From positions 1 to 64,000 of the forward strand of contig JAGBEI010000031.1 of NCBI GenBank assembly GCA_017937065.1: a stretch of 64,000 bases of DNA. Direction: 5' to 3'. This document shows positions 32,988-37,896 of this stretch, in pieces; the first letter of the stretch is position 1, and the number at the start of each line of letters is the position of its first letter. The stretch is from Clostridia bacterium (lineage in GTDB: Bacteria > Bacillota > Clostridia > Oscillospirales > QAKW01). The notes under the pieces were generated by a model. The model saw only the letters and a list, made by a program, of their open reading frames with translations, was not told the DNA's origin and searched no databases. A program made the translations under genes and the position numbers.

Positions 32988-33329
32988 TTAGTTATTGAAA
33001 CTTCTGTTCTGCTCGTTTGAGCTCTGATTGCGCTGATTGCTGTTCTGATTGTTCTTCTGGTTGTTGTTCTGATTGTTTTTCTGGTTGTTGTTCTGGTTGT
33101 TGCGCTGATTGTTGTTCTGGTTGTTGTTCTGGTTGTTCATACTGTCTCTCCGGTCACTTCTGAAATTTGGCAGCGGAATATCGTAAATTTGACTGTACGA
33201 GTGTACCTCGCTCTGATCCATAGGAGCAGACGGGATAAGACCCGTACATTCCGACATTGACGCTGCGTGAAAGCTGTCGTCAAACAGCTCTCTGTCGTCT
33301 TCGCAATCATAAGGCAAATGTTTTTTCAT
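32988..33329 (-). CDS. Small acidic protein with C-terminal NNQx tetrapeptide repeats
   Basis: A 113-residue protein, function unknown. The first 62 residues are acidic and ordered-looking, with MSECTGLIPSAPMDQSEVHS then YSQIYDIPLP. I recall a similar CTGLIP...YxxIYD pattern in small proteins of sporulating clostridia, but cannot verify it. Residues 65-100 are about nine tandem NNQx units (x is N, R, K), followed by a Gln/Ser/Asn tail. No signal or membrane segment is seen. The ATG at 33329 is chosen because AGGGGAG precedes it. Candidate roles include a spore-coat or self-assembling protein. Confidence 0.65.
   Translation of the reverse strand: MKKHLPYDCEDDRELFDDSFHAASMSECTGLIPSAPMDQSEVHSYSQIYDIPLPNFRSDRRDSMNNQNNNQNNNQRNNQNNNQKNNQNNNQKNNQNSNQRNQSSNEQNRSFNN
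33030..33137 (-). repeat. 12-bp period repeat encoding NNQx
   Basis: About nine degenerate units of a 12-bp repeat, built from AAC/AAT-AAC-CAG-N codons on the minus strand, in frame in the gene at 32988-33329. Copy number is likely to vary between strains. Confidence 0.8.
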
Positions 33330-33582
33330 AACAATCTCCCCTCTTGCAGTCACATTTGAAGCAAAAGCTGTAACAAGCGACGAAATTTCCACAAATCGAA
33401 GGAACAACTTTAAGATAAAGCTTTTCCCTTACAAGCGATGAAATACATCAAGCCGATTACAATTTCATTTCAATGTGCTTGCATTTGAAGAGCGCTTTTG
33501 CACTCTTCGATATTATAATTGCCGTAAAACGCAGAATTATAAGCAGTAAATTTTAGCAAAAAAGCAGAAAATTTTAAAAGCG

Positions 33583-33611
33583 TTGACATAAAAAAAGAAA
33601 AAGATTAGAAT
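33583..33611 (+). promoter_or_regulatory. Promoter of mgtE
   Basis: TTGACA (33583-33588), 17-base spacer, TAGAAT (33606-33611). Inferred transcription start near 33618, giving a leader of about 143 nt. The upstream part of this gene-free gap (33330-33580) holds only an imperfect hairpin at 33487-33509. Confidence 0.75.
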
Positions 33612-33617
33612 AATAGT

Positions 33618-33760
33618 AGTATATGAAAAAGGCAGGTGAAAACAGTGGACGCTTCAGGCGTGACGGTACCGCGACAATGCGGCAAAGACAGCACAGCGCC
33701 GCTGTTTTTGCCGTGCAAGAACGGTACCTCTTAAATACTTATTAAGGGGGCTGATTCAAA
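33618..33760 (+). promoter_or_regulatory. Structured 5' leader of mgtE, candidate riboswitch of unknown class
   Basis: Hairpin 1: ACGC 33649-33652 with GCGT 33658-33661. Hairpin 2: GGTACCG 33665-33671 pairs with CGGTACC 33722-33728; a symmetric 6x6 internal loop (CGACAA and CAAGAA) follows; then 33678-33692 pairs with 33701-33715 (15 bp, three G-U) around an 8-base loop. Hairpin 3: CTTAA 33730-33734 with TTAAG 33742-33746, touching the AAGGGG Shine-Dalgarno. It lacks the conserved M-box sequence expected for Mg2+ sensing ahead of mgtE. Two overlapping short open frames (ATG 33623 and GTG 33636) could alternatively encode leader peptides. Confidence 0.55.
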
Positions 33761-35131
33761 ATGGAAAAAATGACGCTTAAGGACACCGTACTTAAGCTGA
33801 CAGCAGACAAAAAATACAAAGCTATTCGCGAGGTCATGAGCGTTATGAACGCATTTGACATCGCGGAAATATTCGAGCAGCTGCCGGATAACAAACGGCC
33901 TGTTCTTTTCAGGCTTCTTCCCAAGGAGCTGGCAGCGGATGTTTTTGTCGAGCTGGAAGACGATATCAAGGAAGAGCTTATCAAAAGCTTTTCGGACAGC
34001 GAGCTGGCAGCGGTAATTGACGAGCTGTATGTCGACGATGCGGCAGACCTTGCGGAGGAAATGCCAGCAAACGTAGTCAGACGTATTTTGCGTCATGCGT
34101 CGCCCGATATGCGCAAGATGATCAATGAAATCCTGCGTTATCCAGACGACAGTGCCGGCAGTATCATGAACACCGAGTATATTTCACTGCGCGCAACAAT
34201 GTCAGTGGAACACGCAGTAGCTCATATCAGGAAAACCGGCTTTGACAAGGAAACAATCAATACGCTGTATGTAATCGATAAGGGCAGACATCTGATAGGC
34301 GTAGTATCCATCCGCGCGCTTCTTTTTGCCGCTCCGCAGGATATCATTGAAGATATAATGGATACTCACAGCATTATATTCGTCAACACGCTGGACGACA
34401 AGGAAAACGTGGCTATGACGTTTGAAAAATACAATCTTACCGAGCTGCCGGTTACGGATACGGAAAAAAGACTTGTGGGAATTGTAACGGTTGACGACGC
34501 CATAGACGTCCTTCAGGAGGAGGCGACGGAGGATATCGAAAAAATGGCGGCAATAACACCGTCTGACAAACCCTATCTTAAAACATCTGCGGCAGAAACA
34601 TTTGCAAAACGCATACCGTGGCTGATGTTACTAATGATATCTGCAACATTTACGGGAATAATTATATCTCATTTCGAAAGCTCGCTCGGTGCGCTGCCGA
34701 TACTGACTGCATTTATTCCTATGCTGATGGATACGGGAGGCAACTCAGGCAGTCAGGCGTCAGTTACTGTAATCCGCGGAATATCTTTAGGTGATATACG
34801 CTTCAGAGACATTCTCAGGGTTATATCAAAGGAGCTGCGCGTAGCGCTGATGTGCGGCGCGGTACTGGCAGTCACGGCATTTGCCAAAGTATACCTGATT
34901 GACAAGTTTATTATGGGCAAGGAAATAACGCTGCTTATAGCATGCGTAATCAGTGCCACCCTGCTTGTAACGGTAGTTATCGCAAAAATCGTTGGCTGCT
35001 CACTGCCGCTGCTTGCCAAAAAGATAGGATTTGACCCTGCGGTCATGGCAAGCCCGTTTATAACAACCATTGTGGACGCATTCTCGCTTCTTATCTATTT
35101 TTGGTTTGCGAACATGATTTTAAAGCTTTAA
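33761..35131 (+). CDS. mgtE: MgtE-family magnesium transporter
   Basis: Mg2+ channel/transporter gated by cytosolic Mg2+. The 456-residue protein has the N-terminal helical MgtE_N domain (1-125, AFDIAEIFEQLPDNKRPVLF and ELYVDDAADLAEEMPANVV), a CBS pair (about 130-250, NTLYVIDKGRHLIGVVSI, DTEKRLVGIVTVDDAIDVL) and a five-helix membrane domain (about 280-456) with PMLMDTGGNSGSQASVTVIR, whose Asp lines the pore. Full length. The structured leader upstream suggests metal-responsive control. Confidence 0.95.
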   Translation: MEKMTLKDTVLKLTADKKYKAIREVMSVMNAFDIAEIFEQLPDNKRPVLFRLLPKELAADVFVELEDDIKEELIKSFSDSELAAVIDELYVDDAADLAEEMPANVVRRILRHASPDMRKMINEILRYPDDSAGSIMNTEYISLRATMSVEHAVAHIRKTGFDKETINTLYVIDKGRHLIGVVSIRALLFAAPQDIIEDIMDTHSIIFVNTLDDKENVAMTFEKYNLTELPVTDTEKRLVGIVTVDDAIDVLQEEATEDIEKMAAITPSDKPYLKTSAAETFAKRIPWLMLLMISATFTGIIISHFESSLGALPILTAFIPMLMDTGGNSGSQASVTVIRGISLGDIRFRDILRVISKELRVALMCGAVLAVTAFAKVYLIDKFIMGKEITLLIACVISATLLVTVVIAKIVGCSLPLLAKKIGFDPAVMASPFITTIVDAFSLLIYFWFANMILKL

Positions 35132-35278: not shown

Positions 35279-35764
35279 ATGATAAACATTGTACTTGTAG
35301 AACCCCAGATACCGCAGAATACCGGCAACATCTCGCGCACCTGCGCCGCAACCGGCATGAGACTTCACATTATAGAGCCGATAGGCTTTGACATATCGGA
35401 GCGTGCTGTCAGACGGGCGGGGCTTGACTACTGGAAATACCTCGACCTTACGGTTTATGAAAATTATGAAGAATTTTCACGGAAAAATCACGGTCGATTT
35501 TACTACTGCACCACAAAGGGTCAAAAGATTTATTCCGACGCCGACATGAGCGCGGACAACTTATATCTTGTATTCGGAAAAGAGACCAAGGGACTGGACG
35601 AGCAGCTGCTCAAAGCCAACTATGACAAATGTATCCGGATACCTATGATAGACGACGCCCGCTCGCTCAATCTGTCAAACTCCGTAGCCGTTATAGGCTA
35701 TGAGGCACTGCGCCAGCAGGGCTTTATGTCACTTAAAACCAAAGGAGAGCTAACTATAATATGA
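35279..35764 (+). CDS. trmL: tRNA (cytidine/uridine-34-2'-O)-methyltransferase
   Basis: SPOUT-class enzyme that methylates the wobble ribose of certain tRNA-Leu. The 161-residue minimal protein has MINIVLVEPQIPQNTGNISR (motif 1), LYLVFGKETKGLDEQLL (motif 2) and IRIPMIDDARSLNLSNSVAV (motif 3), forming the trefoil knot, with no extra RNA-binding domain, as in TrmL. Its stop overlaps the start of the SLH peptidase gene by 4 bp, an unusual partnership. Confidence 0.93.
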   Translation: MINIVLVEPQIPQNTGNISRTCAATGMRLHIIEPIGFDISERAVRRAGLDYWKYLDLTVYENYEEFSRKNHGRFYYCTTKGQKIYSDADMSADNLYLVFGKETKGLDEQLLKANYDKCIRIPMIDDARSLNLSNSVAVIGYEALRQQGFMSLKTKGELTII

Positions 35765-37896
35765 AAAAAGCAAAAAAAATAACAGTTTCACTTCTTACCG
35801 TCGCCGTACTCGGCTTAAATACGTTCTTAAGTCCGGGGCTTCGGACGGAAATCAACAATATCAAGGCTGCGTCCTACACTCCGATTTTCAGCGTAAGTGA
35901 CAGAGCAAACGGGCAGTCCTCCGCCGACATCTCGGAAAACGGCGGCCGTATACCTTTACATACTGCAATATCGTCTTACGAAAGCGACTCATATCACAGC
36001 GGTACAGAGCTTAAAGGCAATTCTTCATATCCCTCTTATTACAGCTCCGCCGATTTAGGCTATACCTCCGGCGTTGACAATCAAATGACAACAGACGCCT
36101 GCTGGGCATTTACGCACAATGAGCTTATAGAAATAAATCTTGCTAAAAAGTACGGTGTGAAATATGACTTTTCCGAAGAAGCGATGAAATTCGAAACATC
36201 GAACATCACAAACCCGCTGTACGGATACATGCGCAGTCCAAACGGCGGCGGAAACGAGTATTATTCTACCGCATATCTTGCCCGAACAGGCAGCGTACTT
36301 GAAAGCGACGAACCGTTCTCCGTATCTGAAGTTCGCAGTGTAAACAAAGACGAGCTGAACCGTCAGGGAATGCTCAGCAGTGTTCCCATGTACATTTTCG
36401 GTTTGAACCGAAGCAATACCTACAATGCTGAGGCTGTTGACAAAATCAAGGAGCTGGTCATGCAGTACGGCGCCGTCGGTTCCGCACTTTTTTACGATGA
36501 AAGCCCGCTTTATCAGCCGTCGTCGCGCGAATGCTATTATTACGACAGCTTATACAATGAAAACTTCCCCGATACTTACGCCAACCACTCTGTAACCATT
36601 GTCGGCTGGGACGATAATTACAGTGCGGACAACTTTGTGCATAAGCCGGCGGGAAACGGTGCCTTTATCGTTAAAAACAGCTGGGGGCTTTATCACAACA
36701 ACCAATCCTCCGATTATGTATATGTATCTTACTATGACAGACACATTACAAATGAAATCTTTGCTACGGATTACGAAATCGAAAACAGTCTTTACGACAA
36801 CACTTATCAGTACGACCCGCTCGGCTGGTGCCGCAATCTGGTAATTAACAGCAGCAAATCGCTGAGCGTCACTCGTTTTGTAGCCGACAAGCCGGACGAA
36901 ACGGTAACCGCCGTCTCGACGTACATAATTCAGCCGGGTACCACCGCCAAGGTTATGATATGCACAAACGGCGATTTTAAAAATCAGAACTCATATATCA
37001 CGGTTTACGAGCACACGTTTGACGCGGCAGGCTATTATGTGATGCCGATAACACCTGTAAAGCTTTCGGGAAACGAGTATTATGCCGCAATAGAGCTGAG
37101 CGTGCCCTCAGGCAGTGCACAGCTTGCAATTCAGTCTGATATCCGACTGCTGATTGACAACGCAGTGAATATTCCCAACACCTGTTATGTGGGCAGCTCC
37201 TTTAGCGATCTGAATACAATAGAAAACATCGCAGAAATCATAAATTCCCAGGCAAGTGCAAGCAGTGACAAAATACGAATGCCAATGGTCTGTGTAAAGG
37301 CATTCACAAAATCGTCGGATACAAATTCACTAAAAAATATAAGCTCTTTCACTGATGTCGCTGACACACGCTGGTACGCACAGGCGGTTGACTACGCCGT
37401 CGGAGCCGGACTTTTTTCGGGCGTCAGCAGCAGCACGTTCGAGCCGTCAACACAGATGACAAGAGCGATGTTTGTAAGAGTGCTTGCAAATCTTACAAAT
37501 ATAGATGTTTCATCTTACTCAGACATAGGCTTTAAGGACATCGAAAAAAACCGCTGGTATACGTCAGCCGCCTACTGGGCAGTCACGAAAGGTATTGTTG
37601 AGGGAACAGCTCCGAATACCTTTGCACCGTATGAAAATATCACGCGGCAGCAAATGTGCGTTATGCTGATGCGGTATGCCCAGACTCTCGGTATGAATTT
37701 TGAAAGAACCGACGTAAGCTTTGTATTCGACGATGACAACAAAATACAAAACTATGCGCGTCAAGCCGTATATACCTGCCGCGAATACGGAATTATAGAC
37801 GGCATGACAGATACTACGTTTGACCCCAGAAGCAGCGCAACGCGCGCGCAGGTTGCCAATATGTTTATGAATTTCAGCCAAAAATACGTTTACTAA
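35761..37896 (+). CDS. Secreted C1-family (papain-like) peptidase with three SLH domains
   Basis: A 711-residue surface protein. A Sec signal peptide (about 1-36, KKAKKITVSLLTVAVLGLNT) leads to a papain-fold domain with Gln108, catalytic Cys114 (QMTTDACWAF), His276 (NHSVTIVGWDD) and Asn306 (VKNSWG), so the catalytic set is complete. A beta-rich middle region (about 330-520) follows, probably the lectin-like domain often fused to bacterial C1 peptidases. Three S-layer-homology repeats end it (about 528-572, 590-635, 655-705), anchoring it to wall polysaccharide. It may process surface proteins or peptides. Translationally coupled to trmL. Confidence 0.88.
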   Translation: MKKAKKITVSLLTVAVLGLNTFLSPGLRTEINNIKAASYTPIFSVSDRANGQSSADISENGGRIPLHTAISSYESDSYHSGTELKGNSSYPSYYSSADLGYTSGVDNQMTTDACWAFTHNELIEINLAKKYGVKYDFSEEAMKFETSNITNPLYGYMRSPNGGGNEYYSTAYLARTGSVLESDEPFSVSEVRSVNKDELNRQGMLSSVPMYIFGLNRSNTYNAEAVDKIKELVMQYGAVGSALFYDESPLYQPSSRECYYYDSLYNENFPDTYANHSVTIVGWDDNYSADNFVHKPAGNGAFIVKNSWGLYHNNQSSDYVYVSYYDRHITNEIFATDYEIENSLYDNTYQYDPLGWCRNLVINSSKSLSVTRFVADKPDETVTAVSTYIIQPGTTAKVMICTNGDFKNQNSYITVYEHTFDAAGYYVMPITPVKLSGNEYYAAIELSVPSGSAQLAIQSDIRLLIDNAVNIPNTCYVGSSFSDLNTIENIAEIINSQASASSDKIRMPMVCVKAFTKSSDTNSLKNISSFTDVADTRWYAQAVDYAVGAGLFSGVSSSTFEPSTQMTRAMFVRVLANLTNIDVSSYSDIGFKDIEKNRWYTSAAYWAVTKGIVEGTAPNTFAPYENITRQQMCVMLMRYAQTLGMNFERTDVSFVFDDDNKIQNYARQAVYTCREYGIIDGMTDTTFDPRSSATRAQVANMFMNFSQKYVY

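Follow-up and report, generated by a model that had tools for sequence, protein, structure and literature searches.

Which device controls an mgtE gene whose structured leader carries no M-box is the question raised by the window (the whole 64,000-nt stretch of DNA analysed here). For mgtE in Bacillota, the recognised sensor of Mg2+ is the M-box; enterobacteria are known to sense Mg2+ through the ribosome.

The mgtE locus and its leader

The mgtE gene (33761..35131, forward strand) encodes a magnesium transporter, as identified by TIGR00400 (E = 1.6e-138, above the cut-off), with the Pfam domains MgtE_N, CBS and MgtE. A sigma-70-type promoter could be read from the sequence at 33583..33611 of the forward strand (TTGACA at 33583-33588, a 17-nt spacer and TAGAAT at 33606-33611); the first-pass annotation had called it near-consensus, and it is kept in the three other genomes of the genus as well (four in all). 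The gap between this promoter and mgtE amounts to a leader of ~140 nt. Divergently from mgtE, on the reverse strand, lies an open frame (32988-33407) with an Asn/Gln-rich repeat tail (NNQNNNQ...) and no Pfam match. A 711-aa open frame on the forward strand (35761-37896) has a start that resembles a signal peptide; by eye, it also seems to contain a cysteine peptidase region of the C1 type and SLH repeats at its C-terminus.

The structure claimed for the leader by the first-pass annotation is real in statistical terms: none of 200 dinucleotide shuffles (-37.5 +/- 3.8 kcal/mol) folded as well as the leader itself (-52.9 kcal/mol, z = -4.08). Across the window, no Rfam family scored as high as its gathering threshold, nor did a lax threshold bring up anything meaningful over the leader; a known riboswitch was rejected on these grounds. 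The same annotation had seen no M-box core here, and rightly so, as a covariance-model search for RF00380 gave no match in the leader at either the gathering or a lax threshold, and no M-box in the window or in any of the four genomes of the genus. As a positive control, this search detected the M-box in Bacillus subtilis and Lactococcus lactis.

Two overlapping open frames had been noted in the leader, one from ATG 33623 to 33745 and the other from GTG 33636. The second proved to be the right frame but with a later start: the strongest Shine-Dalgarno (SD) sequence among the short ORFs upstream of mgtE, AGGTG (33634..33638, forward strand), assigns the start to GTG 33645 in that frame. The ATG 33623 frame has no SD and was rejected. 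The resulting leader ORF (33645..33734, forward strand) has a GTG start, 29 codons encoding (M)DASGVTVPRQCGKDSTAPLFLPCKNGTS, and a TAA stop at 33732-33734. Its peptide begins (M)DASGVTVP, with Asp-2 as the single acidic residue at the start, and the N-termini in genomes of the same genus read MDASGVTVPRQ or MDAAGDTVPEH.

In fold predictions the window RNA is bistable, with one fold for the free RNA and another when the leader SD and start codon are masked. In its minimum-energy form, the free RNA pairs 33635-33653 with 33695-33712, and 33719-33734 masks the mgtE SD. The long hairpin described in the first-pass annotation (GGTACCG 33665-33671 with CGGTACC 33722-33728, together with an upper stem) belongs to the masked fold but not to the minimum-energy fold of the free RNA; that description was correct as far as it went, but missed the pairing of 33635-33653 with 33695-33712.

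Five segments, A to E, can be recognised in these folds, all on the forward strand. Segment A (33635..33653) contains the leader SD, the start codon and codons 2-3; it pairs with segment C (33695..33712; AGCGCCGCTGTTTTTGCC), the antistart strand towards the 3' end of the leader ORF, through 14 bp, a bulged A at 33649 and a further 4 bp. When A is not paired with C, a small hairpin P1 (33649..33661) forms between ACGCT 33649-33653 and GGCGT 33657-33661, and its CGC/GCG is retained among related leaders. Segment B (33665..33671, GGTACCG), an anti-sequestor within the leader ORF, pairs with 33722-33728 of segment D (33719..33734), the sequestor strand common to B:D and D:E. Segment E (33742..33757) is the mgtE ribosome-binding site (RBS), with AAGGGGG at 33744-33750, and is masked by D. 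The upper hairpin P3 (33679..33714) joins 33679-33692 to 33701-33714, its 3' arm being the antistart strand. In the fold model, the cost of opening the mgtE RBS drops from 9.5 to 2.2 kcal/mol once the leader SD and start codon are masked.

Leader ORFs upstream of magnesium importers

DNA similarity searches beyond the genus returned effectively the genus only, and none of six leader peptides scored above the cut-off of any NCBIfam profile. A first motif, consisting of the SD plus TGGAC at the start, was searched in 394 genomes of the order and matched 12 of them (0 for the reversed control); seven of these matches are mgtE leaders, one other family included, and the rest are ordinary genes. 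Because so loose a motif also matches ordinary genes, later collections were made from mgtE itself or with a stricter peptide motif. The named leader-bearing records are metagenome-assembled genomes (MAGs) of uncultured Clostridia and Clostridiaceae; the sampled genomes as a whole are mostly MAGs, and their assignment to Bacillota is based on Clostridia-named records and M-box context, not on a taxonomy label.

For unbiased sampling, mgtE upstream regions were taken regardless of any leader, and the short ORF with the best SD was picked in each, with residue 2 ignored. Asp or Glu occupied position 2 in 55 of 82 such ORFs in the first set and in 43 of 79 in a second, for which most regions came from other families of the order. 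The share was 21 of 40 when other orders of the class were sampled and 17 of 40 for the rest of the phylum. The background, calculated from the collected loci, was 15.6% for random best-SD short ORFs and 19.2% for long ORFs. Roughly one third to one half of the sampled mgtE genes are missing a leader of this kind. Typical leader peptides are MDAGSSAGAVPGRSSIG..., MDTGNSSTSAKPRSS..., METGSSKGKPRSTLFALFAL, MDSGPLPGYGYFNEK... and MDADPSNECLKLKFKICR..., and distant members in Bacillota begin MDADP, METDP or MDPEP.

Some leaders depart from the common layout. In a compact subtype (MDSGPLP, MDYDPLP, MDPEPLS; seven loci) the leader stop nearly touches the mgtE SD, with little room for segment D, and the mechanism may be simpler. 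Two leaders of the same genus carry an extra hairpin, inserted between C and D and ~60-75 nt long, into which the leader ORF extends.

Gene specificity was examined by a context-blind search for the peptide motif MDAGSS...R in 295 genomes, in which the neighbouring gene was ignored. The motif was found in 23 genomes (0 for the reversed control), in 22 of them 133-257 nt upstream of mgtE and in the remaining one upstream of mgtA. The latter gene encodes a P-type ATPase whose N-terminal part is best matched by magnesium-translocating P-type ATPase (PRK15122, E = 1.8e-45; TIGR01524, E = 3.7e-39), and the full gene scores above the TIGR01524 cut-off. It was considered as an exception to gene specificity and rejected as such, because NCBIfam groups the product with magnesium-translocating ATPases. 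Six further mgtA genes of the order are preceded by MDSG or MDSD leaders. On these sequence associations, the leader device tracks Mg2+ importers from two unrelated families. At the loci with mgtA-type leaders, clustered mgtA-like pairs have a leader visible before one member only.

Ten loci carry an M-box upstream of the leader ORF, in tandem, which indicates two separate, stackable elements. A terminator-like hairpin lies between the M-box and the leader ORF in at least some of these tandem loci. Four mgtE genes have an M-box and no recognised leader ORF. At five loci, the RBS-masking hairpin is followed by a T-run just before the start codon and could act as an intrinsic terminator.

Pairing of segments across leaders

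For comparison among leaders, A was defined as the start region (-12 to +10), B as the ORF body, C as the stretch that pairs best with A, D as the stretch between C and the mgtE SD, and E as the mgtE RBS. In a cognate test, the pairing of each segment with its own partner was compared with its pairing with partners shuffled in from other leaders. Such tests depend on which leader ORF we chose and on duplex energies calculated with a simple model; replication, null pairs and reversed controls address both dependencies.

In the first set, A paired with the whole downstream stretch at z = -14.7 (0 of 20,000 permutations), B:D at -8.35 and D:E at -9.07; B:C and C:D reached about -3.4, and A:B, A:D, A:E, B:E and C:E were null. 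In an independent set, taken from other families, z was -11.3 for A, -7.4 for B:D and -5.6 for D:E; the null pairs were the same, with C:D in addition. The corresponding values were -7.9, -3.4 and -4.2 in other orders of the class and -8.6, -5.7 and -3.7 in the rest of the phylum, and A:E and B:E were null in every set tested. When 108 leaders were pooled, z was -22.6 for A:C, -12.0 for B:D and -11.4 for D:E; reversal of the segments, which leaves their composition unchanged, brought these values to -3.9, -4.3 and -1.6. The B:C hairpin (P3), at -2.7 to -3.4, is comparable to the reversed-sequence controls and was dropped as a conserved element.

B:D and D:E use the same nucleotides of D in 44 of 53 leaders of the first set and in 30 of 34 of the independent set. 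Given the order A-B-C-D-E, A:C and B:D cross each other and are therefore mutually exclusive, except as a pseudoknot. This plan is kept in the mgtE leaders of other Bacillota despite little sequence identity, with segments B, C and D retaining their pairing while their sequence identity is lost; among the 108 leaders, A:C shows nearly every pair type from -8 to -1 and from +6 to +9. A frequent B motif (CGAAGUAG/GGAAGUAG) mimics the mgtE SD and pairs with D (UACUUCC), an RNA constraint to which the recurrent Gly-Ser and Arg-Ser codons can be ascribed. In the same 108 leaders, most of which were chosen for Asp/Glu (the claim of an acidic residue rests on the unbiased counts instead), the GA at +4/+5 in codon 2 does not vary, even though only 68 of them have +5 in a pair. 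Fixation beyond the needs of pairing points to the acidic amino acid itself.

A candidate ribosome-operated attenuator and its known counterparts

At the level of sequence comparison, the ORF family, the three pairings, their mutual exclusivity and the gene specificity are all demonstrated. The leader is, in our judgement, probably a ribosome-operated translational attenuator of mgtE that answers to low Mg2+. When the leader is untranslated, A:C would form, B would be trapped and D:E would mask mgtE (OFF). A ribosome held at the leader start or its first codons, or lost from them again and again, with the body of the ORF free, would block A:C, so that B:D would form and D would leave E (ON). 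Ribosomes that traverse the whole leader would cover B and C, and D:E would form (OFF). Under scarce Mg2+, ribosomes would stall or drop off at the acidic codon or codons just past the start, by an intrinsic ribosome destabilisation like that of MgtL and MgtQ; either event would favour the second of these states, and more Mg2+ importer would be made. We infer both the direction of control and the failure of ribosomes at acidic codons in low Mg2+ by analogy with these two leaders, an analogy strengthened by the DADP, ETDP and DPEP starts of distant members and weakened by the close relatives with Asp-2 alone.

Equilibrium folding backs this direction only modestly. Over 53 leaders, the computed cost of opening the RBS was 9.5 kcal/mol for the free RNA, 8.8 with the start occupied and 9.9 with start and stop occupied; the comparison of start occupied with start and stop occupied came out at 26 leaders versus 9 (p = 6e-4), and that of free RNA with start occupied at p = 0.06. 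The differences run in the expected direction but are small, and equilibrium accessibility was not accepted as proof.

The same attenuator might serve a signal other than Mg2+, such as initiation capacity, a nucleotide level or charged tRNA that reads the early Gly/Ser codons; it might also act as a classic arrest peptide. This we regard as unlikely, though it deserves to be weighed: many leaders carry just one acidic residue (Asp-2), fewer than MgtL or MgtQ, leaders held by a ribosome can generally serve many signals, and the mgtM and mgtP leaders of Salmonella respond to ATP and charged tRNA-Pro (PMC8092293). However, the leader follows Mg2+ importers of two unrelated families, its constant feature is an acidic residue 2 and not a run of a single amino acid, and its C-terminal residues, unlike those of arrest peptides, are not conserved.

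Translational coupling, in which translation of the leader through to its stop would open the D:E hairpin and activate mgtE, finds its best case in the window itself, where the leader stop sits inside D. In the fold model a ribosome terminating there frees the mgtE RBS (0.7 kcal/mol), as does coverage of the whole ORF (3.3 kcal/mol). mgtE could accordingly be opened by termination as well, and the window copy may be partly coupled and not purely attenuated. In most leaders, however, D begins only after the stop, which is separated from mgtE by roughly 50-70 nt or more, and coupling leaves the conserved A:C and B:D pairings unexplained; we hold it to be still less likely than another signal. 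The first-pass annotation had preferred a metal-sensing RNA of a different kind; a stable fold, a transporter gene, competing folds and RBS masking reminiscent of a translational expression platform would suit an RNA that senses Mg2+ or another metal by itself, but this is very improbable, since no conserved aptamer core with unpaired invariant nucleotides was found across the 108 leaders (fixed positions were seen there at the start codon and at the GA of codon 2), B, C and D pair while losing identity, Rfam gives no match, and the conserved features are an SD, a start codon, an Asp/Glu codon and mutually exclusive helices. The leader peptide, which that annotation had entertained as the rival idea, is the better reading, and it occurs together with strong covariation, not in place of it.

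We found no earlier report, in the open-access full-text literature, of a leader ORF of this kind upstream of mgtE or mgtA in Bacillota, and the probable ribosome-operated switch, which sits before magnesium importers in many Bacillota, is apparently undescribed so far. We lean slightly towards the broader view that the widespread acidic-start leader ORFs of Bacillota make the ribosome a Mg2+ sensor for both mgtE and mgtA by means of a start:antistart attenuator that in some cases stands stacked behind an M-box. If this is true, one transporter gene at the stacked loci would read Mg2+ twice, through RNA binding and through ribosome stability. The view predicts a second, ribosome-based layer of Mg2+ control in many gut and environmental Bacillota and offers an account of mgtE control in lineages without an M-box. 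The leaders also form a large natural alignment, which can be used to ask how Mg2+ might be reported by a nascent chain carrying as few as one acidic residue, at position 2, and they illustrate how a leader-ORF attenuator can resemble an orphan riboswitch.

Several known elements share parts of this design. The M-box (ykoK, RF00380) is likewise a leader of Bacillota mgtE genes and stands in tandem with the leader ORF in the ten loci described above, but it is an aptamer that binds Mg2+ directly, without an ORF. The mgtE motif SRC-65-1 is also a structured RNA upstream of mgtE, with the SD and AUG in a stem; by its description, as a proposed riboswitch reported only from Thioalkalivibrio, it is set apart from the Bacillota leader (PMC11109978). 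In mycobacteria, an M-box is followed by the conserved small ORF Rv1805A in a Mg2+-regulated operon, but that ORF is mycobacteria-specific and itself regulated by the M-box, and a start:antistart attenuator is not described for it (PMC12810186).

The closest counterparts are enterobacterial. In MgtL, the leader peptide of mgtA in E. coli and Salmonella, acidic residues after the start (EPDP) destabilise the ribosome at low Mg2+ (Chadani 2017, cited in PMC11282234). Like MgtL, the Bacillota leaders are peptides placed before a Mg2+ importer, and the DADP, ETDP and DPEP starts of distant members resemble EPDP; the window peptide, in contrast, has Asp-2 and no EPDP-like or multiply acidic start. 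MgtL also works through Rho-dependent termination, whereas the Bacillota leaders would use RBS masking and sometimes have terminator-like hairpins. MgtQ, the leader ORF of Salmonella mgtB, has Asp2 and Glu5 and an RBS-masking stem 3:4 that alternates with 2:3. It matches the Bacillota leaders in several ways: it is a short ORF placed before a Mg2+ importer, its residue 2 is acidic, and it has alternative stem-loops, one of which masks the importer RBS, with failed or slowed translation of the leader favouring the open form (PMC8092293). It differs in that it has 8 residues, precedes a P-type ATPase and lies between genes of an enterobacterial operon; a start:antistart helix is not described in the excerpted text of that paper, and no sequence relation to the Bacillota leader was detected. 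The window nevertheless shares with MgtL and MgtQ a translatable short ORF before a Mg2+ importer (33645-33734, of a family found at both mgtE and mgtA), an acidic residue within the first five codons and, in its predicted folds, mutually exclusive helices (D:E versus B:D), one of which masks the importer RBS. Such a common plan without a detected sequence relation suggests a solution that has evolved repeatedly or is very old. Relative to the known leader-peptide attenuators of Mg2+ import, what appears to be new in the Bacillota leaders is their start:antistart design and their wide distribution.
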